DNA from: a virus
IMG/VR virus record: IMGVR_UViG_3300038408_000094
Span: 1-27,036 of that record
Direction: 5' to 3' (one strand)
Length of the DNA: 27,036 nucleotides
How positions within the stretch are numbered: position 1 is the stretch's first letter; the number at the start of each line of letters is the position of its first letter. A program made the translations under genes and the position numbers. Below the pieces are notes generated by a model. The model searched no databases and was not told the DNA's origin. It was given only the letters and a program-made list of their open reading frames with translations. This document shows positions 15,818-26,116 of this stretch, piece after piece.

Positions 15818-16324
15818 ATGCAGACGAAACCGAAGGCTAATTCAGTCATTACCCATGAGATTGTGGGCGGGGAAATTACGTTTACCGTGCGGGATGCGGG
15901 CGCGGTTACCCTGAACGTTGCCAAACTATCCGATCGAGTCCGCGATCGGGCGATGCTGCACGGGATGATTCAACGCATATCCGACGCAGCCGCGCTGTCA
16001 CGCGATCCCGCGACGGGGATACCGGCGACGCCGGCGGACAAACTGGCATCAATGCGGGCACTCGTGGACCATTACGAAACGGGAACCGAGGAATGGAACC
16101 GGCGCCGGGCGGGCGGGGATGGAGGGGTTTTGGTGCGCGCACTCATGGAGCTCTATCCGACGAAAACCCGCGAGCAAATTGGGGAATTTCTCGCGGGGAA
16201 ATCCGCACGGGAAAAGGACGCGCTCAAACGGTCGGCGAAAGTCGCGCCGATTATCGAACGGATGGAACGGGATGCGGGGCGGGGGCTCGATGGGAATGCG
16301 ATGTTGGAAGGGCTGGAAGGTTGA
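15818..16324 (+). CDS. unknown early protein, paralog of the 188-aa protein, with C-terminal LEG tail
   Basis: A 168-aa protein; ATG at 15818 follows CGGAGG. An upstream in-frame start at 15782 lacks an RBS. Residues 10-45 are beta-rich, 46-90 helical. From residue 92 (EEWNRRRAGGDGGVLVRALMELYPTKTREQIGEFLAGKSAREKDALKRSAKVAPIIERME) it aligns residue for residue with the 188-aa protein at 19120-19686, which reads GEWSTKR...SILLRAVVEF...VKEFLKAKSPAEKMALRNSSKIKPIVERLE. Both end in a short peptide: here NAMLEGLEG. Soluble, charged, no catalytic motif. The gene stands alone between its own promoter and an intrinsic terminator. The 'KSAREKDALKRSAKVAPIIERM' helix could bind nucleic acid or a partner protein. 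Confidence 0.75.
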   Translation: MQTKPKANSVITHEIVGGEITFTVRDAGAVTLNVAKLSDRVRDRAMLHGMIQRISDAAALSRDPATGIPATPADKLASMRALVDHYETGTEEWNRRRAGGDGGVLVRALMELYPTKTREQIGEFLAGKSAREKDALKRSAKVAPIIERMERDAGRGLDGNAMLEGLEG

Positions 16325-16350
16325 TAAACCAGGGCCAAGGATTTACGGAT

Positions 16351-16393
16351 AATCCCCGCTGAATTTACAGGTTGACAAACAATCCCCGCTGAA
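16351..16393 (+). repeat. duplicated 13-mer feeding the terminator stem
   Basis: AATCCCCGCTGAA occurs at 16351-16363 and 16381-16393. Either copy can pair with GCGGGGATT at 16396-16404, giving two mutually exclusive hairpins. Confidence 0.65.
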
Positions 16394-16410
16394 AGGCGGG
16401 GATTTTTTTT
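16381..16410 (+). terminator. intrinsic terminator after the 168-aa gene
   Basis: Nine-bp stem AATCCCCGC / GCGGGGATT with a 6-base loop TGAAAG, running directly into an eight-T tract (16403-16410). Confidence 0.85.
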
Positions 16411-16724
16411 GACTGGGGAATGGGGAAAACCCGGCAACCACAACAACAACCACACCCCTACACACCCCTTCCCATCCCGACGCCAATTCAAAAACTCAGT
16501 CCGGTCGTTTCTGTTCATATATTTTTTTTTCTTTATAATTTAGAGGCTTAACGGAACTGGGAAACGAACGGACCTGGATAGAAATTATTTTCTCGCCGGG
16601 ATGGGATGGGGGGATGAACACGCCGGGCGGGGATGGGTAAATGATTGATTTAACGGGGGATTTTGTCCGTTTTGTTGTGGTATAATCATCCCATCGGGTC
16701 AACAACAGACAGGAGCTCCGGACA
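16411..16724 (+). promoter_or_regulatory. gene-free spacer with extended -10 promoter
   Basis: This holds a CA-rich stretch, a run of nine T (16522-16530) followed by an isolated TATAAT (16534-16539) without a good -35 box, and G-rich sequence. At 16678-16686 TGG-TATAAT forms a perfect extended -10 element. It would start a transcript near 16693 for the endonuclease VII-like gene (RBS GGAG at 16712). Minus-strand frames here have low-quality composition and are not called. Confidence 0.5.
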
Positions 16725-17111
16725 ATGACGGATAAATACAAGTTGAGGAGAAAGGAATACTACAGGAAGTGGGTGAGGAAGAATCAAGAGAAAGTGAGGG
16801 AATATCAAAAGCAGTATCGGTATCATAAAAGTGCATATTCCCTGGGGGATTATGGAAGGATGCTGGAGAAACAACAGGGGCTCTGTGCGATATGCGGGGA
16901 GGCGCCGGAGAAATTGGTAGTAGACCATCATCATAAGTCGGGAGTGGTGAGGGAGCTGCTTTGTTATAGCTGTAATTTAGGGCTTGGGAATTTCAGGGAT
17001 AATGCAGGGATATTGGAGAAGGCGATTGAATACTTGCTGAAACACGAGACGGCAAGGGAAATTCCACAAGAAAGAATCAACGCGATGCTTCAAGAGTTGG
17101 AGGGACTATGA
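16725..17111 (+). CDS. recombination endonuclease VII-like nuclease with C-terminal LEG tail
   Basis: A 128-aa protein. After a basic helical N terminus (residues 1-35) come LEKQQGLCAICGEAPEKLVVDHHHKSGVVRELLCYSCNLGLGNFRDN. Two CxxC pairs (C54/C57, C80/C83) bind zinc. D67-H68-H69 and N84 are the HNH/His-Me catalytic residues, as in T4 gp49 (endonuclease VII). It would resolve branched DNA before packaging. It can also be read as a free-standing HNH enzyme. Beyond the catalytic domain, IPQERINAMLQELEGL carries the tail seen on three other early proteins. Codon use is AT-richer than neighbours (AGA, ATA, GTA), hinting at acquisition. The next gene overlaps in ATGA. Confidence 0.85.
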   Translation: MTDKYKLRRKEYYRKWVRKNQEKVREYQKQYRYHKSAYSLGDYGRMLEKQQGLCAICGEAPEKLVVDHHHKSGVVRELLCYSCNLGLGNFRDNAGILEKAIEYLLKHETAREIPQERINAMLQELEGL

Positions 17112-17605
17112 CAAAGAGCGGCGGAATAAAATTCACGGCAGGACCAAAAAATCCTGGGGCGAAACTGACTTGGGATGTGGTGAGGAAGATGCGGGATGAT
17201 TATTCGAGGGGAGTGTCGCAGGGGAAACTTGCGGTGAGGTATAGGGTTTCTGTTAACACTGTGGGGAGGATCGTGAGGAATGAAAGCTGGCAAGAAGGAA
17301 CGAGGCCGCTGACGAGGAAAGTGGGAACGGAAGAGAAGACAAAGGAGGAAATCCTGGAAGGCTTGCTTCGTACGCAAAGGGAAGTGAACTTGGTGAATGA
17401 GTCGCGGAACTTCGCTGTGAAGCAGCTATCGCCAGAGGCAGCAGAAAGGGTAAAAGCAGTTGGCGGGGTGATTCCCCCACTTGAAGAGATAATGCGAAGG
17501 GAAGCGGAAGAGAGTCAAGCAAGGGATGAGGAACTGGCGAAGAGGCTGGGGGATAATCCACCCCTTGCGGGGGATGGCGGGCTGGAAGAGTTGATGAAGA
17601 AATGA
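17108..17605 (+). CDS. helix-turn-helix protein coupled to the nuclease
   Basis: A 165-aa protein; ATG overlaps the nuclease stop. Residues 19-61 (KLTWDVVRKMRDDYSRGVSQGKLAVRYRVSVNTVGRIVRNESW) form a HTH of the kind often found attached to or beside HNH homing endonucleases. The remainder is charged and helical: a segment LNLVNESRNFAVKQLSPEAAERVKAVGG (approximately residues 93-120), then PPLEEIMRREAEE and an end, GDGGLEELMKK, that loosely resembles the shared LEG tail. It may target the upstream nuclease to DNA or act as a regulator; both are inference. Codon use matches the nuclease, so the two probably arrived together. Confidence 0.65.
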   Translation: MTKSGGIKFTAGPKNPGAKLTWDVVRKMRDDYSRGVSQGKLAVRYRVSVNTVGRIVRNESWQEGTRPLTRKVGTEEKTKEEILEGLLRTQREVNLVNESRNFAVKQLSPEAAERVKAVGGVIPPLEEIMRREAEESQARDEELAKRLGDNPPLAGDGGLEELMKK

Positions 17606-17615
17606 TAACTCTTCA

Positions 17616-17644
17616 TTGACGGGGGGCATGGGTGGCGGTAGACT
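17616..17644 (+). promoter_or_regulatory. promoter before the membrane-protein cluster
   Basis: TTGACG (17616-17621), 17-base spacer, TAGACT (17639-17644). It lies 50 bases before the ATG at 17697, which has RBS AAGGAGG. Confidence 0.5.
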
Positions 17645-17696
17645 CGGCAACGATCCCCGCACAATGGGTGGGGGGAACTGGTAAGGAGGGAATGAA

Positions 17697-18062
17697 ATGA
17701 AGAAGCATGAATGGGCTGTACTGGCGGGCTGTGTTGCCGCCGTGGTAGTGGTCTCGGCGACGGATCACCTATTCGCCACGCCGACCGCCAAGGGCGGTGG
17801 CATATCCACCCCCGCTTCTGAGCTATGGACACTCAAAGATATTGATGGGGACGGGGAAGAGGAAGCGATCCCGCCGGGATGGGATGCGGCTCACCGCCGG
17901 GTCGCCAAGACCCATCTGCATTTCCGCGAGCATGAGTGGGATTGCACGACCGACCTGGAATGCGAGATGGAAGAGTGGAATCTCGAGCGCCGGCTCAAAC
18001 GAGCCCCCATCGCGATTCGCTGCACGGACGAAGGGGATTGCTTGCCGGTTTCGAAGGACTAA
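17697..18062 (+). CDS. 121-aa membrane-anchored protein
   Basis: MKKHEWAVLAGCVAAVVVVSA gives two Lys, then a hydrophobic helix (residues 7-21) with no clear signal-peptidase site. LAGC resembles a lipobox, but the hydrophobic part before the Cys is too short, so an N-terminal anchor with the rest outside is likelier. The outer part is acidic with four Cys (WDCTTDLECEME, AIRCTDEGDC), fitting two disulfides in the periplasm. A dispersed hairpin repeat (17781-17813) lies in frame and encodes PTAKGGGISTP. Envelope role, e.g. lysis accessory or host-surface modifier, is inferred from topology. No known family recognised. Confidence 0.65.
   Translation: MKKHEWAVLAGCVAAVVVVSATDHLFATPTAKGGGISTPASELWTLKDIDGDGEEEAIPPGWDAAHRRVAKTHLHFREHEWDCTTDLECEMEEWNLERRLKRAPIAIRCTDEGDCLPVSKD
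17781..17813 (+). repeat. dispersed hairpin repeat, copy A
   Basis: CCG-ACCGCC-AAG-GGCGGT-GGCATATCCACCCCC: 6-bp stem then a conserved tail. Inside the 121-aa gene, read in frame. Confidence 0.6.
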
Positions 18063-18084
18063 CCGACATGGGGGATGGGATACA

Positions 18085-18130
18085 CCGACCGCCCTTGGGC
18101 GGTGGCATACCCAGGTCGCATACCCACCCC
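18085..18130 (+). repeat. dispersed hairpin repeat, copy B
   Basis: CCG-ACCGCCC-TT-GGGCGGT-GGCATACCCAGG, with the tail GCATACCCA(CCCC) duplicated just after. It lies in the spacer between the 121-aa and 54-aa genes, followed by a CAA-rich run of repeats (18139-18163). Confidence 0.6.
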
Positions 18131-18183
18131 TTTCCTGCCAACAACTCAACAACTCAACAACTTAACCAAGGAACCAAGCCAAC

Positions 18184-18348
18184 ATGCCGCTCCATCCACG
18201 GAATTGTGATTGTCCCCTTTGTCGACAGGGAGGGGAGGAAGAGGTGGGGATGGTCCACTTCCTTCGAGTCTGTCTCGATATAGTTCTCTTCACCCTGGCG
18301 ACCGCCGTGGTCGTCGGGTTTGTCTTTGCACAATTCGCAACGAGATAA
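18184..18348 (+). CDS. 54-aa protein with Cys cluster and C-terminal membrane helix
   Basis: ATG at 18184 after AAGGAACCAAGCC. The N terminus MPLHPRNCDCPLCRQGGEEE has a C-x-C-x-x-C cluster that could bind zinc. The second half DIVLFTLATAVVVGFVFAQF is a transmembrane helix (residues 31-50), ending FATR. The topology is a tail-anchored or type III membrane peptide. The stop is followed at once by the RBS (AAGGAG) of the next gene, so the two are in one operon. Function unknown. Confidence 0.55.
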   Translation: MPLHPRNCDCPLCRQGGEEEVGMVHFLRVCLDIVLFTLATAVVVGFVFAQFATR

Positions 18349-18359
18349 GGAGCACACAG

Positions 18360-18770
18360 ATGACGAATGACGATCCGACTGCCGCAGGCAGTGGCATACC
18401 CACTCCCCCCTCGACCATCCCTTTGCCATCTTCCCCTCCATTCCAAGATTCCTTCCCCTTTCCGATCCCACCCCTCTCCGCGATTGAGAAGACCTTTCAC
18501 AAGGTTACCGTGGACCATCTTTGCTTTCGGTGGAAGCTTCTCGACCTGTCTCCCCCGGATACGCCGGAGGGACTCGCCGACTGGCACCGAGTGGAAAACC
18601 AGCTCCTCGGCGGGTGGTTCTGGCGGGATGATGAAGCGGCGGTGGAACTCATCTTCCTCTCGGATTTGCTTGTGACGAAGAGAAGCTTGATTACCGGGAA
18701 ATTCACCCAGGAAGCGGAAGCGCGATCGGTGACTTGGAAGAGGGAATGGCAGGAAGGAGAGAAGGAATGA
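18360..18770 (+). CDS. 136-aa protein, unknown
   Basis: ATG at 18360 with AAGGAG 8-13 bases upstream. A longer open frame upstream lacks an RBS and crosses the 54-aa gene. The N-terminal 45 residues are Pro/Ser-rich and disordered; the first part (DPTAAGSGIPTPPS) is encoded by a dispersed hairpin repeat. The folded part is IEKTFHKVTVDHLCFRWKLLDLSPPDTPEGLADWHRVENQLLGGWFWRDDEAAVELIFLSDLL and then a charged helix. It has no membrane segment. The next gene overlaps in ATGA. Not recognised. Confidence 0.6.
   Translation: MTNDDPTAAGSGIPTPPSTIPLPSSPPFQDSFPFPIPPLSAIEKTFHKVTVDHLCFRWKLLDLSPPDTPEGLADWHRVENQLLGGWFWRDDEAAVELIFLSDLLVTKRSLITGKFTQEAEARSVTWKREWQEGEKE
18375..18410 (+). repeat. dispersed hairpin repeat, copy C
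   Basis: CCG-ACTGCC-GCA-GGCAGT-GGCATACCCACTCCCCCC. The stem carries compensating changes relative to copy A (C-G to T-A pair), so pairing is conserved. In frame inside the 136-aa gene. Confidence 0.6.
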
Positions 18771-18991
18771 AGAAAGGGAATTCACGACCGCCGACCTCCG
18801 GTCGGGGCCTACGCAACCTCGCCTTCCTCACTCTCCTCTCCCTCTCTGGCTGCGGAGGCGGGGGAAGTGGGGAATCCCCTCCCCAGCCGCCCGCCTGCTC
18901 CTCCCAAGGCATCGCCTCCCTCGACCTATCCGGCAACCCCCGCGCCTGCCCGCAAGCCACCATGGGCGCGCTCGAAGCGGTGGGGGAATGA
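18767..18991 (+). CDS. small outer-membrane-type lipoprotein (o-spanin candidate)
   Basis: A 74-aa precursor; ATG at 18767 follows GGAGAGAAGG and overlaps the upstream stop. MKKGNSRPPTSGRGLRNLAFLTLLSLSGC has a basic head, a hydrophobic core (residues 18-26) and lipobox LSGC with the acylated Cys at 29. The mature part, GGGGSGESPPQPPACSSQG, is Gly/Pro-rich and about 46 residues long with further Cys. The size and proline content fit Rz1-type outer spanins, but no clear inner spanin with a coiled coil is visible beside it. The gene may equally be an envelope protein blocking superinfection. A fourth, divergent hairpin repeat sits in its 5' part. Confidence 0.6.
   Translation: MKKGNSRPPTSGRGLRNLAFLTLLSLSGCGGGGSGESPPQPPACSSQGIASLDLSGNPRACPQATMGALEAVGE
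18791..18815 (+). repeat. dispersed hairpin repeat, divergent copy D
   Basis: CCGACC-TCC-GGTCGG followed by GGCCTACGC. The stem is like copy E and the tail is weaker. In the N-terminal coding part of the lipoprotein gene. Confidence 0.4.
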
Positions 18992-19004
18992 CCTCATCCC
19001 TTCA

Positions 19005-19032
19005 TTGACCGATCGGGCAACCCGTGTATAAT
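19005..19032 (+). promoter_or_regulatory. promoter for the 188-aa gene
   Basis: TTGACC (19005-19010), 16-base spacer, perfect TATAAT (19027-19032). A leader of about 80 bases precedes the ATG at 19120. Confidence 0.7.
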
Positions 19033-19119
19033 TGCGCCTAATCGGCCGACAATTCGGACCCGATGGGGAAGAGGCAATCGCCCTTAAAGGATGCCAAACA
19101 ACCAAGGAGCAACCAGCAA

Positions 19120-19686
19120 ATGAACGATCAAGCAACGAGTGAACAGGCAACTGTCAAGCGCGAAGTCGAATCCGTCCGCATGTCGGACGGCAGGACGGTG
19201 GAATTCGTGGGGAAGCGGAAGCTTCTCAAGGAATCCATCATCGAGGGGGATAAGGTCTACGTCCGCCTGGATTACCGGAATGGGGAGACCCGAGTCTTCG
19301 AAGTCCCGACGATGCTCCTTCTCAAATTCGCTGGCCATGGCGCCGAACAGAAGCTCGGCGACGAGACCGCCGGCGTGCAGGACGTGGAAGACATGGTGCT
19401 CTATGTGGACGAGCTGATCGAGCGCCTCTCCCGCGGCGAGTGGTCCACCAAGCGCGAGGGCAGCCCCTTTGCCGGCGCGTCGATCCTCCTCCGGGCGGTG
19501 GTGGAATTCTCTGGGAAGTCGGTGGATCAGGTCAAGGAGTTCCTCAAGGCCAAGTCCCCGGCGGAGAAGATGGCCCTTCGCAATTCCTCCAAGATCAAGC
19601 CGATCGTCGAGCGGCTGGAGGCGGAGAAGGCGTCGAAGGCAGGGAAAGTCGATACGGATGCCTTGCTGAACGAGTTGGAAGGCTAA
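19120..19686 (+). CDS. unknown early protein, paralog of the 168-aa protein, with C-terminal LEG tail
   Basis: A 188-aa protein; ATG at 19120 preceded by AAGGAGC. The in-frame start at 19063 lies too close to the promoter. N-terminal domain: VRMSDGRTVEFVGKRKLLKE, VYVRLDYRNGETRVFEVPTMLLLKF, then GHGAEQKLGDETAGVQDVEDMVLYVDELIERLSRGEW. C-terminal domain (residues 107-168) aligns with the 168-aa protein (SILLRAVVEFSGKSVDQVKEFL, then AKSPAEKMALRNSSKIKPIVERLE). It ends KVDTDALLNELEG. Homologous hypothetical proteins occur in other phages as far as I recall, with no known function. It is a single-gene transcript with its own promoter and terminator, implying a dose-sensitive or abundant product. Confidence 0.78.
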   Translation: MNDQATSEQATVKREVESVRMSDGRTVEFVGKRKLLKESIIEGDKVYVRLDYRNGETRVFEVPTMLLLKFAGHGAEQKLGDETAGVQDVEDMVLYVDELIERLSRGEWSTKREGSPFAGASILLRAVVEFSGKSVDQVKEFLKAKSPAEKMALRNSSKIKPIVERLEAEKASKAGKVDTDALLNELEG

Positions 19687-19748
19687 CGGGCCGGCTGATT
19701 AGCCAGTCAAGTCCACGGGGGAATTGAGCCTCCGACCGTGGGCGCGGA

Positions 19749-19781
19749 GGGCAGAGGGCAATCCTCTGCCCTTTTGTTTTT
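19749..19781 (+). terminator. intrinsic terminator after the 188-aa gene
   Basis: Nine-bp stem GGGCAGAGG / CCTCTGCCC, loop GCAAT, then TTTTGTTTTT. Strong and canonical. Confidence 0.9.
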
Positions 19782-19817
19782 CCGCCGAAGAGTTGCGAGG
19801 CTATCCCCATCCCTTTG

Positions 19818-19846
19818 TTGACATTACCAAACCGGGGATATATTAT
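19818..19846 (+). promoter_or_regulatory. strong promoter for the recombination operon
   Basis: TTGACA (19818-19823), exactly 17 bases, TATTAT (19841-19846). It is the best-matching promoter in the window. Its -10 box is embedded in the left arm of a perfect inverted repeat. Confidence 0.8.
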
Positions 19847-19866
19847 GATCGCGTAATATATCCCCG
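19833..19866 (+). promoter_or_regulatory. operator-like perfect inverted repeat over the -10 box
   Basis: CGGGGATATATTA (19833-19845), spacer TGATCGCG, TAATATATCCCCG (19854-19866): 13 matching bp per arm, centre-to-centre distance 21 bases. It covers the -10 box and expected start site (about 19853). A transcript would contain only the right arm, so it should act as DNA, most simply as a dimeric repressor or activator site. Confidence 0.75.
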
Positions 19867-19886
19867 TTCAACCAAGGAGGCTCACC

Positions 19887-20510
19887 ATGTCATCCCCTAT
19901 CGACCCGCTTGATCTCTTGCTCAAAGACGCCCTCGTCCAGCAGGCCTGCCGGCGGAACCACAACCAAGCTCTCAAGCAATCCTCCCACGCGGAGGAGATG
20001 AAGAGCTTCCAATCTACCTACACCAACCCGGCTAACTGGCAACACGAGCGCAACCTCGCTCTCATCCACAAGTCTTCCGCCGGCTTGATGACCCTCCTCG
20101 GCACCTTCGCCGAGCACACGCACCTTCGGAAGAAGGGCGTCCGCAAGCTCACCCGAGTCGAGGGGATCGTGGAGATCTTCGGCGAGGAAATCGTCATGGG
20201 GGACTGGTGGCTCCGGGCGGAAGTCCGCGAGAGGATATCCCCTTCGGAAGAGGTCGAGGACATCCATCTCACCCTTCCCGAGGTATCCCTCAAGTCTCTC
20301 CACGTCTTCGCCCATTCGGTCTCCCTTCGTATCCGCCTCCTCCGCGGAGCGATTTTCCGGGTGGAGCTAATGTCCAACACCCAGTTTATCGACCCGACGA
20401 ACAACCATCTCTTCTTCTTCCCGCCCGGCTTGGACATCCTCGACGGGATGAGCTTCGAATCAAAGATAGCGATGAGGAAGCAATTGGATCACCTGCATGA
20501 CCCAGATTGA
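19887..20510 (+). CDS. first gene of the recombination operon, unknown
   Basis: A 207-aa protein with ideal RBS AAGGAGG before ATG at 19887. N-terminal half helical and basic: LDLLLKDALVQQACRRNHNQALKQSSHAEEMKSFQSTYTNPANWQHERNLALIHKSSAGLMTLLG. C-terminal half beta-rich (VEGIVEIFGEEIVMGDWWLRAEVRER and so on, LRGAIFRVELMSNTQFID). No membrane segment or catalytic signature. Being first after a palindrome-covered promoter, it could be an autoregulator or an early host-takeover protein. That is position-based guesswork. It overlaps the next gene by 14 bases. Confidence 0.65.
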   Translation: MSSPIDPLDLLLKDALVQQACRRNHNQALKQSSHAEEMKSFQSTYTNPANWQHERNLALIHKSSAGLMTLLGTFAEHTHLRKKGVRKLTRVEGIVEIFGEEIVMGDWWLRAEVRERISPSEEVEDIHLTLPEVSLKSLHVFAHSVSLRIRLLRGAIFRVELMSNTQFIDPTNNHLFFFPPGLDILDGMSFESKIAMRKQLDHLHDPD

Positions 20511-20736
20511 GCGGTTGCGGCAAAGGATTGCCTTCGTCCATTCTCTCTTGGAAAGAACTCTCCTCGACGAGACGCTCTCAGCGGACTCGTTCCTCAACAT
20601 CCACTTCGCCCGGATGACTTGTGAAGAACTCTTGGGGAACACGTCCTTCTGCACCTGTCTTGCTCACCCATTCCCCCACAAGCGGGGGAAGGAATGTCCC
20701 CTCAACATTGGATCTTCCGATGGCCCGTCATCCTAA
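20497..20736 (+). CDS. 79-aa protein, unknown
   Basis: ATG at 20497, 14 bases inside the preceding gene. The N-terminal 45 residues make two helices (IERLRQRIAFVHSLLERTLLDE, FARMTCEELLG). The rest holds three Cys (FCTCLAHPFPHKRGKECP) that might bind a metal together with His. Coding composition fits the neighbours. It overlaps the following gene by 17 bases. No family recognised. Confidence 0.5.
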   Translation: MTQIERLRQRIAFVHSLLERTLLDETLSADSFLNIHFARMTCEELLGNTSFCTCLAHPFPHKRGKECPLNIGSSDGPSS

Positions 20737-21001
20737 CATCATCCCCACGGAGGCAATCCGCTTCCACATCCCCCGAGACCTTCGGATGAAGGTTGACCTA
20801 TTCCTCTTTTCCACCGCGGAGAAGAAGATCCCCTACGCCGCACACCAGCGATTCTATTCCTCCCTCATCCGCTGGTTCTTCGACACGGAGGAGCTTGATC
20901 TCTCTCCCTACCTCGGCACCCCCCAGGGAATGGTTACGATCCGCGGCCGGCCAGAAGCAATCCGACAACTTGAAACGAAGCTAAAGGAGTCCCCACAGTG
21001 A
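20720..21001 (+). CDS. conserved phage protein, unknown
   Basis: A 93-aa protein from ATG at 20720 (MARHPNIIPTEAIRFHIPRD). The upstream in-frame Met at 20621 adds an out-of-character leader. The pattern 'lr..lp.dl..k.dl.lfs..e..iPy.ahq.f...lir.ff....ldL.pYlGtp.g...i.g..ea...L' resembles a small family I recall from podophage early regions, normally next to a gene like the 69-aa one that follows. This is memory, not a search. It overlaps the next start. Function is unknown. Confidence 0.65.
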   Translation: MARHPNIIPTEAIRFHIPRDLRMKVDLFLFSTAEKKIPYAAHQRFYSSLIRWFFDTEELDLSPYLGTPQGMVTIRGRPEAIRQLETKLKESPQ

Positions 21002-21207
21002 CACCAGAAATCCAGTCCAAGATCTTCCTATTCCGCCAGAAAGCGGCCGAGGGAACCCTCACCCAGGAGGACATGCGGGAGGCAATCCTCCTCCTCCGGG
21101 GCTCCCGGCGATCCGCCGCCGCTGCGTCCGAGACCACCCGCCGGACGAAGGCGAGGAAGGCGGTGAAGTCGGCGGATGAGTTGCTTAATGAGTTGGAGGG
21201 GTTGTAA
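20998..21207 (+). CDS. 69-aa phage protein with C-terminal LEG tail
   Basis: GTG start at 20998, overlapping the upstream stop (GTGA). MTPEIQSKIFLFRQKAAEGT, LTQEDMREAILLLRGSRRSA, then a flexible Ala/Ser/Arg/Lys linker and the end KSADELLNELEGL. Layout: helical hairpin, basic linker, acidic-hydrophobic tail peptide. Proteins of this plan are, as far as I recall, widespread in phages and uncharacterised. The tail is the clearest version of a peptide also ending the proteins at 15818, 16725 and 19120. A linker plus tail suggests a docking peptide for a shared partner. Confidence 0.7.
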   Translation: MTPEIQSKIFLFRQKAAEGTLTQEDMREAILLLRGSRRSAAAASETTRRTKARKAVKSADELLNELEGL

Positions 21208-21645
21208 ATGTCCTACGCAGACTACCTGCATGTAAAAGAGTCAGCAACGTATAACAGCTGGTGTAGCATGAAAGCTCGTTGCTTAAATCCACGCAATAAA
21301 GATTATAAAAATTACGGAGGACGAGGCATCACAATATGTAAGGAATGGGTAGATTCATTCGTAGTATTTTTACAGGATATGGGACCGCGTCCTATAAATA
21401 CTCAACTTGATCGTATGGATAACACTCGTGGTTATTCCAAGGATAACTGCCGGTGGACAACAATAATGAAGAATAGTCAAAACAGACGATCATCTAAGTT
21501 GGATCAAGAACAAGTAGTAGAAATTCGTAGATTGCACGCTAGTAAGCAATTTACACAAAAGGAATTAGCCAAGAGGTTTCACATAAGCAAGTCTATGCTT
21601 TGCTTAGTGGTAAACGGAAAGGTATGGAGGAATGTGCCACTATGA
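21208..21645 (+). CDS. free-standing HNH-type homing endonuclease with HTH
   Basis: A 145-aa protein. Residues 14-84: TYNSWCSMKARCLNPRN, KDYKNYGGRGITICKEWVDS, FVVFLQDMGPRP, then LDRMDNTRGYSKDNCRWTT. This Y-x-x-W-x-x-M-x-x-R-C ... YGGRGI ... LDR-x-D ... N-C-R-W plan is a common phage homing-endonuclease/DNA-binding family. Residues 96-145 are a HTH (EIRRLHASKQFTQKELAKRFHISKSML). Composition is visibly AT-rich with ATA, AGA and GTA codons, unlike the flanks. It fills precisely the space between the preceding TAA and the HAD gene start (ATGA overlap), as a selfish insertion would. Confidence 0.8.
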   Translation: MSYADYLHVKESATYNSWCSMKARCLNPRNKDYKNYGGRGITICKEWVDSFVVFLQDMGPRPINTQLDRMDNTRGYSKDNCRWTTIMKNSQNRRSSKLDQEQVVEIRRLHASKQFTQKELAKRFHISKSMLCLVVNGKVWRNVPL

Positions 21646-22139: not shown

Positions 22140-22390
22140 AGCAATTCGCAATAGCCATAGCAACCGACGACGAACTCCGCCTCGAGATTATCTCAGCGCC
22201 GGACTGGCGGGAGGCAACCCTTGAACACAAGTGGGCTCCCTGGGATGGGTTGGAAGAGTCCGAGGAGGAAAACGAGGAAGATGAGGAAGAGATCATCTTC
22301 ACCGCCATCCCCCACTCCATCGACGAAGCAAAGGCCGAGGCTCATGACCTCGGCTATCTCTTCGACTGCATCGAGATCCCTTCCCCATGA
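22136..22390 (+). CDS. 84-aa acidic protein
   Basis: MKQFAIAIATDDELRLEIIS, then APDWREATLEHKWAPWDGLEE and a run of Glu/Asp (EESEEENEEDEEEII), ending AKAEAHDLGYLFDCIEIPSP. The acidic centre lies between two beta-strand-like ends. DNA mimicry is conceivable but the acid run is short. Overlaps the genes on both sides by 4 bases. The final 'A...A..LGYLFDCIEI' resembles small phage proteins with a ferredoxin-like strand-helix-strand end. Unknown. Confidence 0.6.
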   Translation: MKQFAIAIATDDELRLEIISAPDWREATLEHKWAPWDGLEESEEENEEDEEEIIFTAIPHSIDEAKAEAHDLGYLFDCIEIPSP

Positions 22391-23286
22391 ACTACTTCCC
22401 TGATGTTGTCGACTCCACCCTCCTCGCCGGGTGGAAATCCTGCCAGCGGAAGGCCGAGTTGGAATCCTTCCTCCATTGGAAGCCAAGGGAAATCTCCGTC
22501 CACCTTCACGCGGGCGCAGCGTTCGCCCGAGGGATCGAGGTCGCCAGGGAGGAATTCTTCGTCAAGGGCCGATCACCGGAGGAAGCTGGCGAGGCGGGCA
22601 TCGGCGCCCTCCTCACTGCCTACGGCACCTTCGAGTGCCCGGAGGATTCCCCCAAGTCCGCTACCCGGATGGCGGGTGCGCTTGAGTTCTATCTCTCCCA
22701 ATACCCCCTCGGGGAGGACGACTGCATCCCCATCACCCTCCCCGGAGGCAAGCGTGGAATTGAATTCTCTTTTGTCCATCCTCTCCCTATCAATCACCCG
22801 ACGACAGGGAATCCACTGCTCTACTGTGGTCGAATGGACGCGCTTTGCACGTTTGCTGGCGGAACCTTCATCGTGGATGAAAAGACCACCAGCCAGCTCG
22901 GCGCCTCCTGGTCGCGGCAGTGGGACCTTCGAAGTCAGTTTACGGGGTATGCCTGGGGTTGTCGCGAGGCCGGCATCCACGTTGACGGCGCTCTCATCCG
23001 GGGAATCTCCATCCTCAAGACCAAGTACGACACCCAGCAAGCGATCACCTACCGCCCGGAGTGGCAGATCGCCCGGTGGTTCGAGGAGACCCTTGAGACG
23101 ATCGAGGAAATGATCGTGGCTTGGAAGCGGGGTAGATTCCGCCATGACCTCGACCATGCTTGCGCGGAGTTCGGAGGTTGCCGTTACAGGCAAATATGTT
23201 TATCTCAAAACCCAGAACCATGGTTAGCGCAGTATTTTGAACAAAGACGCTGGGACCCTGTCACGCGAACGGAGACGAAGCTATGA
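22387..23286 (+). CDS. PD-(D/E)XK exonuclease (RecB/Cas4-like) with possible Fe-S cluster
   Basis: A 299-aa protein. E126 (GIEFSF), D151 (CGRMDAL) and D164-E165-K166 (FIVDEKTT) form the catalytic series. Q184-x-x-x-Y188 (SQFTGYAW) is motif IV of the RecB-type nuclease family. Four cysteines, C19 near the N terminus and C259, C265, C271 in the C-terminal ACAEFGGCRYRQIC, match the plan of the iron-sulfur staple of Cas4/AddB nucleases, although spacing differs somewhat. It would resect DNA ends for the Sak4-like recombinase downstream. From about 23180 the 3' end becomes AT-rich and joins a homing endonuclease gene (ATGA), so the last 25 codons may be recombinant. Confidence 0.85.
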   Translation: MNYFPDVVDSTLLAGWKSCQRKAELESFLHWKPREISVHLHAGAAFARGIEVAREEFFVKGRSPEEAGEAGIGALLTAYGTFECPEDSPKSATRMAGALEFYLSQYPLGEDDCIPITLPGGKRGIEFSFVHPLPINHPTTGNPLLYCGRMDALCTFAGGTFIVDEKTTSQLGASWSRQWDLRSQFTGYAWGCREAGIHVDGALIRGISILKTKYDTQQAITYRPEWQIARWFEETLETIEEMIVAWKRGRFRHDLDHACAEFGGCRYRQICLSQNPEPWLAQYFEQRRWDPVTRTETKL

Positions 23287-23929: not shown

Positions 23930-24353
23930 CCAAACCATCCATCTCTTCGGCCACCCGGATTCTCCTTGGGTAATCCAGAGGAATCATTCCTGGTCATCCG
24001 AGGGCAGCCTTCCCGACCACGTCGCCCAGTCCCTCATCCTCATCTGCCCGCATTGTCTCAAGACCTGGGCGATCCTCGAGATCGAGGGAGATCCCTTATT
24101 TGACGCCCGGATGGTCCCGTGCCATAATCACCCGCCGGTCGAGCCCTTCGCACCAGTGCCGGGGAGCATCCTCACCGAGGAGGGCATCGGCCGGATCGAC
24201 ATTGAGTTACTTGCAGTCCTCCCGCCCGAATTGCTTGAGCGGGAATTTCACCTTCACTTCAGCCAGGAGCAAGCCAGCCATGCAACCAAGTCAGCCATCC
24301 CCCCTTCCCGCAGCAACAGCAAGTTCACTCAACTCTGTTCTCCCAGGAGTTAA
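23919..24353 (+). CDS. 144-aa protein with small metal-binding motif, unknown
   Basis: MKINQTIHLFGHPDSPWVIQ, then SWSSEGSLPDHVAQSLILICPHCLKTWAILE with a CPHC knuckle and VPCHNHPPVEPFAPVPGSIL, which supplies a further Cys and His. This is the look of a zinc-stabilised small phage protein of the DNA-metabolism region. The C-terminal 60 residues include LAVLPPELLEREFHLHF. Its last 74 bases overlap the Sak4-like gene start in another frame. Not assigned to a family. Confidence 0.6.
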   Translation: MKINQTIHLFGHPDSPWVIQRNHSWSSEGSLPDHVAQSLILICPHCLKTWAILEIEGDPLFDARMVPCHNHPPVEPFAPVPGSILTEEGIGRIDIELLAVLPPELLEREFHLHFSQEQASHATKSAIPPSRSNSKFTQLCSPRS

Positions 24354-25155
24354 CGTCCTCCTCGAAGGTCCCACGGGGACCGGGAAAACCCATTCCCTCG
24401 GGACGATCGCGGACGCAGGGGTAGAGCTGTTCTGCCTCTTCACCGAATCGGGACTTGAGACTCTTCTCGGCTATTGGACCGACAGGGGGCTTCCCATCCC
24501 TCCCAACGTCCACTGGCATGTCCTCGAGCGCCCGCAGGGAAGCTTCCTCACCCTTGCGGAATCCGCCGACCGGGTGAACCAGCTTACCCTCGAATCCCTC
24601 GCCAAGATGGTCGACCCGAACCGGGGCAAGCACAATCAATTCACCACCATGCTCCGCGCGCTGGCGAATTTCAAGGACCAGCGCGATGGGAAGGAATACG
24701 GCGCGGTGGATAGTTGGGGGCCGGATCGTTGCCTCGCCTTGGATTCCCTCACCGGGATCAACCCAATCGCGCTTTCCCTCGTCGTCGGCGGGAAGCCCGT
24801 CAAGTCGCAAAGCGATTGGGGCATCGCCCAGGATCAAATCGAGAAGGTCATCCGCCAGCTCTGCGACGGGTGTCGCTGTCACTTCGTCCTCACCGCCCAC
24901 GTTGAGCGGGAGACCGACCAAGTCTTCGGCGGGGTAAAGATCACCGTGTCCACCCTCGGGAGGGCCCTCGCGCCTAAGATCCCCCCGATGTTTTCCGACG
25001 TGATCCTCTCCTATCGGGAGGGAACCAAATTCCTCTGGTCCACCGCGAACGCGCAGGCTGATCTCAAGGCCCGCAACCTTCCCATTGCGGATGGAATCCA
25101 GCCGACGTTTGAACAAATCTTCAACAAGTGGAAATCCCGAGGGGGGAAGGTATGA
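24280..25155 (+). CDS. Sak4-like RecA-fold ATPase / single-strand annealing recombinase
   Basis: A 291-aa protein; ATG at 24280 is preceded by AGGAGC. Walker A is EGPTGTGKTHS (residues 29-39), a Walker B-type CLALDSLTGI with D155. A sensor-like motif HFVLTAHVERETDQ (201-214) follows, and TVSTLGRALAPKIPPMFSDVIL is a conserved stretch of AAA_24/Sak4-type proteins. Phage Sak4 proteins promote ssDNA annealing or strand exchange together with a phage SSB. The flanking exonuclease, SSB-like gene and helicase make a coherent recombination set. A longer frame upstream (from 24100) reads over the previous gene and lacks an RBS. Confidence 0.82.
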   Translation: MQPSQPSPLPAATASSLNSVLPGVNVLLEGPTGTGKTHSLGTIADAGVELFCLFTESGLETLLGYWTDRGLPIPPNVHWHVLERPQGSFLTLAESADRVNQLTLESLAKMVDPNRGKHNQFTTMLRALANFKDQRDGKEYGAVDSWGPDRCLALDSLTGINPIALSLVVGGKPVKSQSDWGIAQDQIEKVIRQLCDGCRCHFVLTAHVERETDQVFGGVKITVSTLGRALAPKIPPMFSDVILSYREGTKFLWSTANAQADLKARNLPIADGIQPTFEQIFNKWKSRGGKV

Positions 25156-25663: not shown

Positions 25664-26116
25664 ATGTCATCATTCGATCCGGAAGCCTTTCTCGACATCA
25701 CTCTCACCGAACCGACGGTCAAGCGCCCTCCCATTCCCGTAGGAGATTACCACGGAATCCTCGGGGAAATCAAGTCCCGTGCGTGGCAGGGGAAGAAGGA
25801 CCCCTCGAAGTCCGGCATCGCCTGGGATGTGCCGATCGAGATTGAGCTTCCCCCTTCCGTCGCCACGATGGTCGGGCAGCCGACGATCAAGGTCACCGAC
25901 AGCATCATGCTGGATATCACCGATTCGGGAAGCCTCGACAATTCTCCGGGGAAGAACCGGCGGCTCCGCCTCTACCGGGAGGCCCTCGACATGAACAAGC
26001 CGGGGGATAGCTTCTCCGCTCGGGCGATGTCGGGCCGTCCGGTGTTGGTGAAGATCAAGCACGAAGAGTATGAGGGCGACCTGTACGAAAGGGTCGATGC
26101 GGTAGCTCGGGCGTAA
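25664..26116 (+). CDS. putative phage single-stranded DNA-binding protein
   Basis: A 150-aa protein. FDPEAFLDITLTEPTVKRPPIPVGDYHGILGEIKSRAWQGKKDPSKSGIAWDVPIEIEL looks like the N-terminal part of OB-fold phage proteins found beside Sak4 genes (DUF669-like; recollection). The rest has KVTDSIMLDITDSGSLDNSPGKNRRLRLYREALDMNKPGDSFSARAM and ends VLVKIKHEEYEGDLYERVDAVARA, again OB-like strands. No acidic C-terminal tail of the bacterial SSB kind is present. RBS CAACCAAGGAG precedes the ATG. It should cover ssDNA for the recombinase and helicase; the assignment depends mostly on synteny. Confidence 0.62.
   Translation: MSSFDPEAFLDITLTEPTVKRPPIPVGDYHGILGEIKSRAWQGKKDPSKSGIAWDVPIEIELPPSVATMVGQPTIKVTDSIMLDITDSGSLDNSPGKNRRLRLYREALDMNKPGDSFSARAMSGRPVLVKIKHEEYEGDLYERVDAVARA

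Follow-up and report, generated by a model that had tools for sequence, protein, structure and literature searches.

Why should unrelated proteins of one virus end in the same short peptide? The question is raised by the IMG/VR virus record IMGVR_UViG_3300038408_000094, which we analyzed over its full 27,036 bases (the window). Four of its predicted proteins, which we call P1, P4, P5, and the endonuclease VII-like nuclease, have C-termini exactly as described in a first examination of the letters that used no database searches (the sequence-only reading; Table 1). Homology comparison also bore out that P1 and P4 are paralogs, being diverged members of one family, and that P5 and the nuclease are unrelated to them. 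The nuclease has a clear PF02945 catalytic domain (74.6 bits against a cut-off of 23.6), and this domain is the sole match in a defense-system library. P1/P4 has no significant match in Pfam, PHROGs, or NCBIfam, and P5 has none in Pfam or PHROGs. Foldseek with P4 returned no solved relative, its matches being unnamed viral homologs only. We find that the shared peptide (the tail) is conserved in related phages, changes in step within each of them, and probably serves to dock its carriers on one shared surface.

Homologs were sought with P4, P1, and P5, singly or as alignments. These searches retrieved phage ctMlz233 (MW202489), Microcystis phage Mel-JY34 (PP438425), and about 95 IMG/VR loci. 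Note that single-protein searches with P5 gave no matches, so that alignment queries were needed, and that a scan of a genome collection for P5 found no prophage. With the core motif defined as [DNS]-x-[DE]-x-[LM]-L-x-[EG]-[LF], the core tail is present in 58 of 63 distinct P5 homologs. Strict core tails end 31 of the 79 P1/P4 proteins, and 58 distinct members of that family carry, in roughly their last 30 residues, a tail with a profile score of at least 6. In both families, the tail is better conserved than the variable stretch before it, and the second core leucine is nearly invariant. The sequence-only reading had named absence of the tail from orthologs in related phages as one observation that would speak against it; orthologs there do carry tails. 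Its statement that the peptide always lies at the extreme C-terminus is not general. Between 0 and 20 residues follow the core (6 to 20 in several homologs), and a free C-terminus is therefore not required. Among the P1/P4 homologs at loci L025 and L086-L096, some have altered or lost tails (DADAELANI, SDEFDDFLG), and the P5 tail of the same phage is normal. Separately, the public record MW202489.1 (L003) labels a 59–amino acid (aa) open reading frame (ORF) at 80-259 as 'class d beta-lactamase oxA-58', very likely a mis-annotation, judged by length.

Further carriers were found by scanning C-termini in related loci, as the sequence-only reading had proposed, with a profile built from 87 P5 and P1/P4 tails. 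Among 1525 other distinct proteins, 21 C-termini scored at least 9, compared with 0 at two internal control offsets. The majority of these belong to two enzymes of one phage group, a PD-(D/E)XK exonuclease (GDDLMQELSDMGSL, DALGGELRDLMN) and a DNA methyltransferase (EALGNELKNLLGGL). In both tailed enzymes, the catalytic domain is followed by a flexible linker and then by the tail, whereas their orthologs in other phages, including the exonuclease of the window, end right after the domain. The families also recover one another when left out of the profile: with exonuclease tails alone, 12 methyltransferases and 7 P5 proteins outscore all internal controls, and with methyltransferase tails, 8 exonucleases and 4 P5 proteins do. 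The scan shows no clear excess outside these four families; with them removed, 8 C-termini among 1833 proteins reached a score of 8 or more, and the internal offsets gave 2 and 6. The window nuclease is therefore a candidate carrier only, as are three types of protein in relatives: a 169-aa protein (IDTDALLSQL), a 165-aa protein (VEGMLEELG), and an 88- or 189-aa protein (LDADEMLSELLEGL). The proposal of a shared tail has strong outside support for P1, P4, and P5 and is plausible for the nuclease, whose score of 9.5 is not significant alone. Nuclease orthologs in five other phages either stop short of the extension or end in unrelated sequence, consistent with the tail having been gained recently in this one case. 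A possible degenerate copy had also been suggested in the helix-turn-helix (HTH) protein at 17108-17605. We rejected this fifth carrier: the ending GLEELMKK has a score of just 1.6, and where its homologs contain stretches that resemble the motif, these are internal.

The tails differ between phages, falling into the classes LF (G015), AKF (G010, G014), GFM (G007), GLM/SLM/AGL (G013, G016), and EL (many others), and the P5 and P1/P4 tails of one phage tend to share a class. Among 32 nonredundant phages, the mean BLOSUM similarity between P5 and P1/P4 tails was 23.8 within genomes, compared with 19.9 ± 0.78 in permuted pairings (P = 0.0002). This co-variation held after thinning to 17 (P = 0.0002) and 11 (P = 0.003) divergent phages. 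As controls, 400 pairs of nine-column blocks were taken from other core families; their z had a mean of 0.03 and a maximum of 3.5, compared with about 5 for the tails. Both families had contributed to the profile used to locate the tails; however, its anchors are constrained equally in every genome, and within-genome matching should therefore not arise from the locating profile. Tail distance barely tracks protein distance (r from 0.05 to 0.32). Furthermore, same-residue tail codons are identical in 90 of 212 cases, against 78 expected. Codon agreement is thus about what codon usage predicts, and tail likeness is therefore maintained at the protein level. That the tails change together within each phage suggests one common partner.

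In nearly all of the 30 whole or near-whole records that we used as a context sample, the tail-bearing families make up one module with a tail-less core. P1/P4, a protein resembling single-stranded DNA (ssDNA)–binding proteins (SSBs), Sak4, and the exonuclease occur in 30 of 30; the polymerase, the methyltransferase, and P5 in 29; and a 72-aa protein, which we take to be ribbon-helix-helix-like, in 28. The conserved DNA polymerase of these phages (PolA) is presumably of family A. In G015 (L161) and G027 (L170), its gene gives two separate matches with a break near residue 333 of 779, perhaps a mobile intron or a true split polymerase. The ssDNA-binding-like protein (25664-26116) has an OB fold in its AlphaFold2 model [predicted local distance difference test (pLDDT) 89.7], and its best Foldseek match is the SSB PrgE (E = 1.4e-04), followed by Ff gene V protein entries below significance. 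It ends in a strand, has no acidic tail, and has only a marginal DUF669 match; on its modeled fold, it is a candidate ssDNA-binding protein.

On these sequence comparisons, the best explanation is that the tail probably docks its carriers on one shared surface. It would be a short linear motif, an amphipathic helix of 9 to 12 residues, borne on a linker by accessory proteins (P5, P1/P4, and, in one clade, the exonuclease and DNA methyltransferase), and it would attach these members of the replication/recombination module to one shared partner. In the AlphaFold2 model of P4 [pLDDT 88.9; predicted template modeling score (pTM) 0.55], the chain breaks and then forms the tail as a helix. Many carriers meeting at one hub would explain why unrelated proteins share the tail, why it sits behind linkers, why enzymes gain and lose it, and why it changes in step. 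Docking on one shared partner was among the roles that the sequence-only reading had offered, and co-variation, variable linkers, and different enzymes in different phages make it the best-supported of them. Nothing favors the packaging or sorting tag that was also offered, and the tail-bearing families sit in the early replication/recombination module.

Which protein would receive the tail is a more tentative matter. The tail would bind as a helix, and a single protein would be the receptor. Our first candidate, itself doubtful, is the OB-fold ssDNA-binding protein, which has no tail; ordinarily the SSB is the tail carrier, and here the roles would be reversed. PolA is less likely, as is, to the same degree, P1/P4 itself through tail-to-tail or helix-turn-tail association; a host protein is less likely again, and Sak4 is the least likely of these. 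Neither correlation of tail distance with protein distance nor column association made any family stand out, the tail-less core compared with structural controls included. Three observations weigh against docking on one hub. Some P1/P4 members have no tail, which makes it dispensable on some carriers; beyond the four families, singletons occur at chance level; and in column association, tail features were not linked more to residues of the SSB, PolA, or Sak4 than to those of structural proteins.

P5 provides a separate lead. When its profile was compared with all PDB sequences, H-NS was the sole match at E ≤ 0.1 (best E = 0.0045). Using hhalign, P5 and E. coli H-NS (L185) align over 64 columns of the oligomerization domain (site 1 and site-2 helix 4) with 33% identity (P = 2.9e-05), and the P5 tail SADELLNELE is matched to IDPNELLNSLA. 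That segment lies inside the site-2 helix-turn-helix of H-NS, residues 57-83 (PMC6936261). Compared with 1000 phage proteins, H-NS scored above all, and the best 14 of those were P1/P4 members. The probability drops to 28.6% (P = 6.1e-04) when the comparison is made with a small profile of the H-NS family. Unlike H-NS, P5 has no DNA-binding domain (no Pfam match of any kind in P5 homologs, and none to PF00816 above cut-off in 18 phage records), and its tail is common to unrelated enzymes. The similarity is weak and marginally significant, and we treat it as a lead, not as family membership.

This lead bears on whether the tails need a separate receptor. They might instead bind each other or the P1/P4 C-terminus, as a self-association helix like that of H-NS site 2, and so hold the proteins of the module to one another. 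Within-genome co-variation would be expected here too, the best, weak match of the P1/P4 profile is the same H-NS segment onto which the P5 tail aligns, and a helix and turn precede the tail helix in the P4 model. However, the likeness to H-NS fades against the family profile, many P1/P4 members have lysine-rich linkers, not a helix, before the tail, and self-pairing of a nine-residue helix would be weak; we judge self-association unlikely. Less probable still is that P5 would be an H-NS-type oligomerizer without a DNA-binding domain, whose oligomer P1/P4, the exonuclease, and the methyltransferase would join via a C-terminal helix plug. If true, unrelated enzymes would be gathered on a phage-made scaffold. 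The tail could also recruit or block a host protein, such as an H-NS-family silencer, the host replisome, or a protease (as a degron), and P5 does resemble the H-NS oligomerization domain minus the DNA-binding domain. Precedents for action on H-NS exist in phage T7 gp5.5, which acts on site 2, and in truncated H-NST, which antagonizes H-NS (PMC8501957, PMC6936261). Yet the exonuclease and methyltransferase carriers are not expected to act on H-NS, and the residues that follow the core in several homologs are contrary to a free-C-terminus degron. In addition, one relative infects the cyanobacterium Microcystis, in which we know of no H-NS. A host target therefore seems to us improbable.

The remaining explanations concern DNA. 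The final LEG(L) might be a coincidence of gene organization, encoding the Shine-Dalgarno sequence of the next gene, and in the window the P5 and nuclease genes do terminate with GGAGGG or GGAGGA, immediately ahead of the following start codon. However, P1 and P4 have no adjacent downstream start, the next gene lies 20 to 103 nucleotides after P5 in most relatives while the tail is still conserved, and the core is upstream of LEG. This explanation is largely refuted, although in this phage a Shine-Dalgarno sequence may influence the final three residues. Alternatively, a DNA cassette might have passed from one gene end to another by recent copying or by gene conversion. Such a transfer would make tails most alike within one genome, as is seen. 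It is disfavored by synonymous divergence, codon identity being near the codon-usage expectation, and by linkers that differ, and we consider it as improbable as the Shine-Dalgarno account.

Docking of several carriers on one partner would place the tail with known C-terminal docking motifs. The PIP box and the bacterial sliding-clamp motif are short, often C-terminal, and direct many unrelated replication, repair, and methylation proteins to one hub. The tail is similar in being one short motif on several unrelated proteins, but no clamp was recognized in the module. A sliding-clamp or PIP motif was rejected: among the 87 tails, Gln is rare at every position, including the third residue before Leu/Met where those motifs conserve it, and position 3 is mostly D/E and position 4 mostly A/D/S. 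In T7, the acidic C-terminal tail of gp2.5 contacts the gp5 DNA polymerase. The acidic C-terminal tails of gp4 also contact this polymerase (PMC12593628). Replication-protein tails docking on a family-A polymerase hub would have a counterpart here, where the phages share one conserved DNA polymerase, although the window apparently ends before its position. T7 tails act by charge on basic patches, whereas the present motif has a fixed leucine core and is common to a nuclease and a methyltransferase. The SSB C-terminal tip (DDDIPF; NDYPPF in HK620) is likewise a short acidic and hydrophobic C-terminal peptide that organizes DNA-maintenance proteins, and in HK620 Sak4 requires it to bind DNA covered with SSB (PMC5928155). 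The polarity is opposite: the SSB tip has one carrier and many partners, whereas here there are many carriers and the ssDNA-binding protein of the module has no tail. The tails are not of the SSB type, which has acidic residues and a terminal Pro-Phe or Phe: their ends vary, and 0 to 20 residues follow the core. Our literature searches turned up no account of a tail shared in this way; within what those searches covered, neither the motif nor its distribution over at least four families seems to have been described.

The features of the window are collected in Table 1. The record is apparently incomplete: the window stops at the ssDNA-binding-like gene, and in relatives the DNA polymerase and methyltransferase genes lie downstream of it. 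Two neighbors of P5 deserve mention. An HNH endonuclease with an HTH-like C-terminal part (21208-21645) begins right at the P5 stop codon. Immediately upstream of P5 lies a short protein (20720-21001; ORF 20621-21001) that is found in 28 of 30 related phages, often adjoining P5. It looks like a ribbon-helix-helix DNA-binding protein and is a candidate partner of P5.

Table 1. Tail carriers, tails, and candidate receptors in the window.
Feature	Coordinates	Strand	Remarks
P1, 168 aa, P1/P4 family member	15818..16324	+	No Pfam, PHROG, or NCBIfam match
P1 tail DGNAMLEGLEG	16289..16321	+	Profile score 17.2
Endonuclease VII-like nuclease, 128 aa	16725..17111	+	PF02945 at residues 38-105; C-terminal extension not conserved in compared orthologs
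Nuclease tail-like end INAMLQELEGL	17076..17108	+	Possible tail; score 9.5
P4, 188 aa, P1 paralog	19120..19686	+	AlphaFold2 model: beta domain, then helices, then separate tail helix 179-187
P4 tail DTDALLNELEG	19651..19683	+	Profile score 24.2
P5, 69 aa, GTG start	20998..21207	+	Helical hairpin, basic variable linker, tail; weakly H-NS-oligomerization-domain-like
P5 tail SADELLNELEGL	21169..21204	+	Profile score 18.2
PD-(D/E)XK exonuclease	22387..23286	+	No tail in this phage; tail present in related clade
Sak4-like ATPase, candidate receptor	24280..25155 (longest ORF 24100-25155)	+	No tail
OB-fold ssDNA-binding-like protein, candidate receptor	25664..26116	+	No acidic C-terminal tail

C-terminal docking peptides such as the SSB tip, the PIP box, and the T7 tails organize replisomes, and the phage examples are few and come from model phages. 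Here, a probable motif of this kind emerged from sequences alone; it occurs across a wide range of uncultured phages, on no fewer than four unrelated families of one module. The tail would offer a handle on the assembly of a polymerase/Sak4 replication-recombination machine. It also suggests a role that can be tested for P1/P4 and P5, two families without annotation, and supplies a peptide as bait for the hub.

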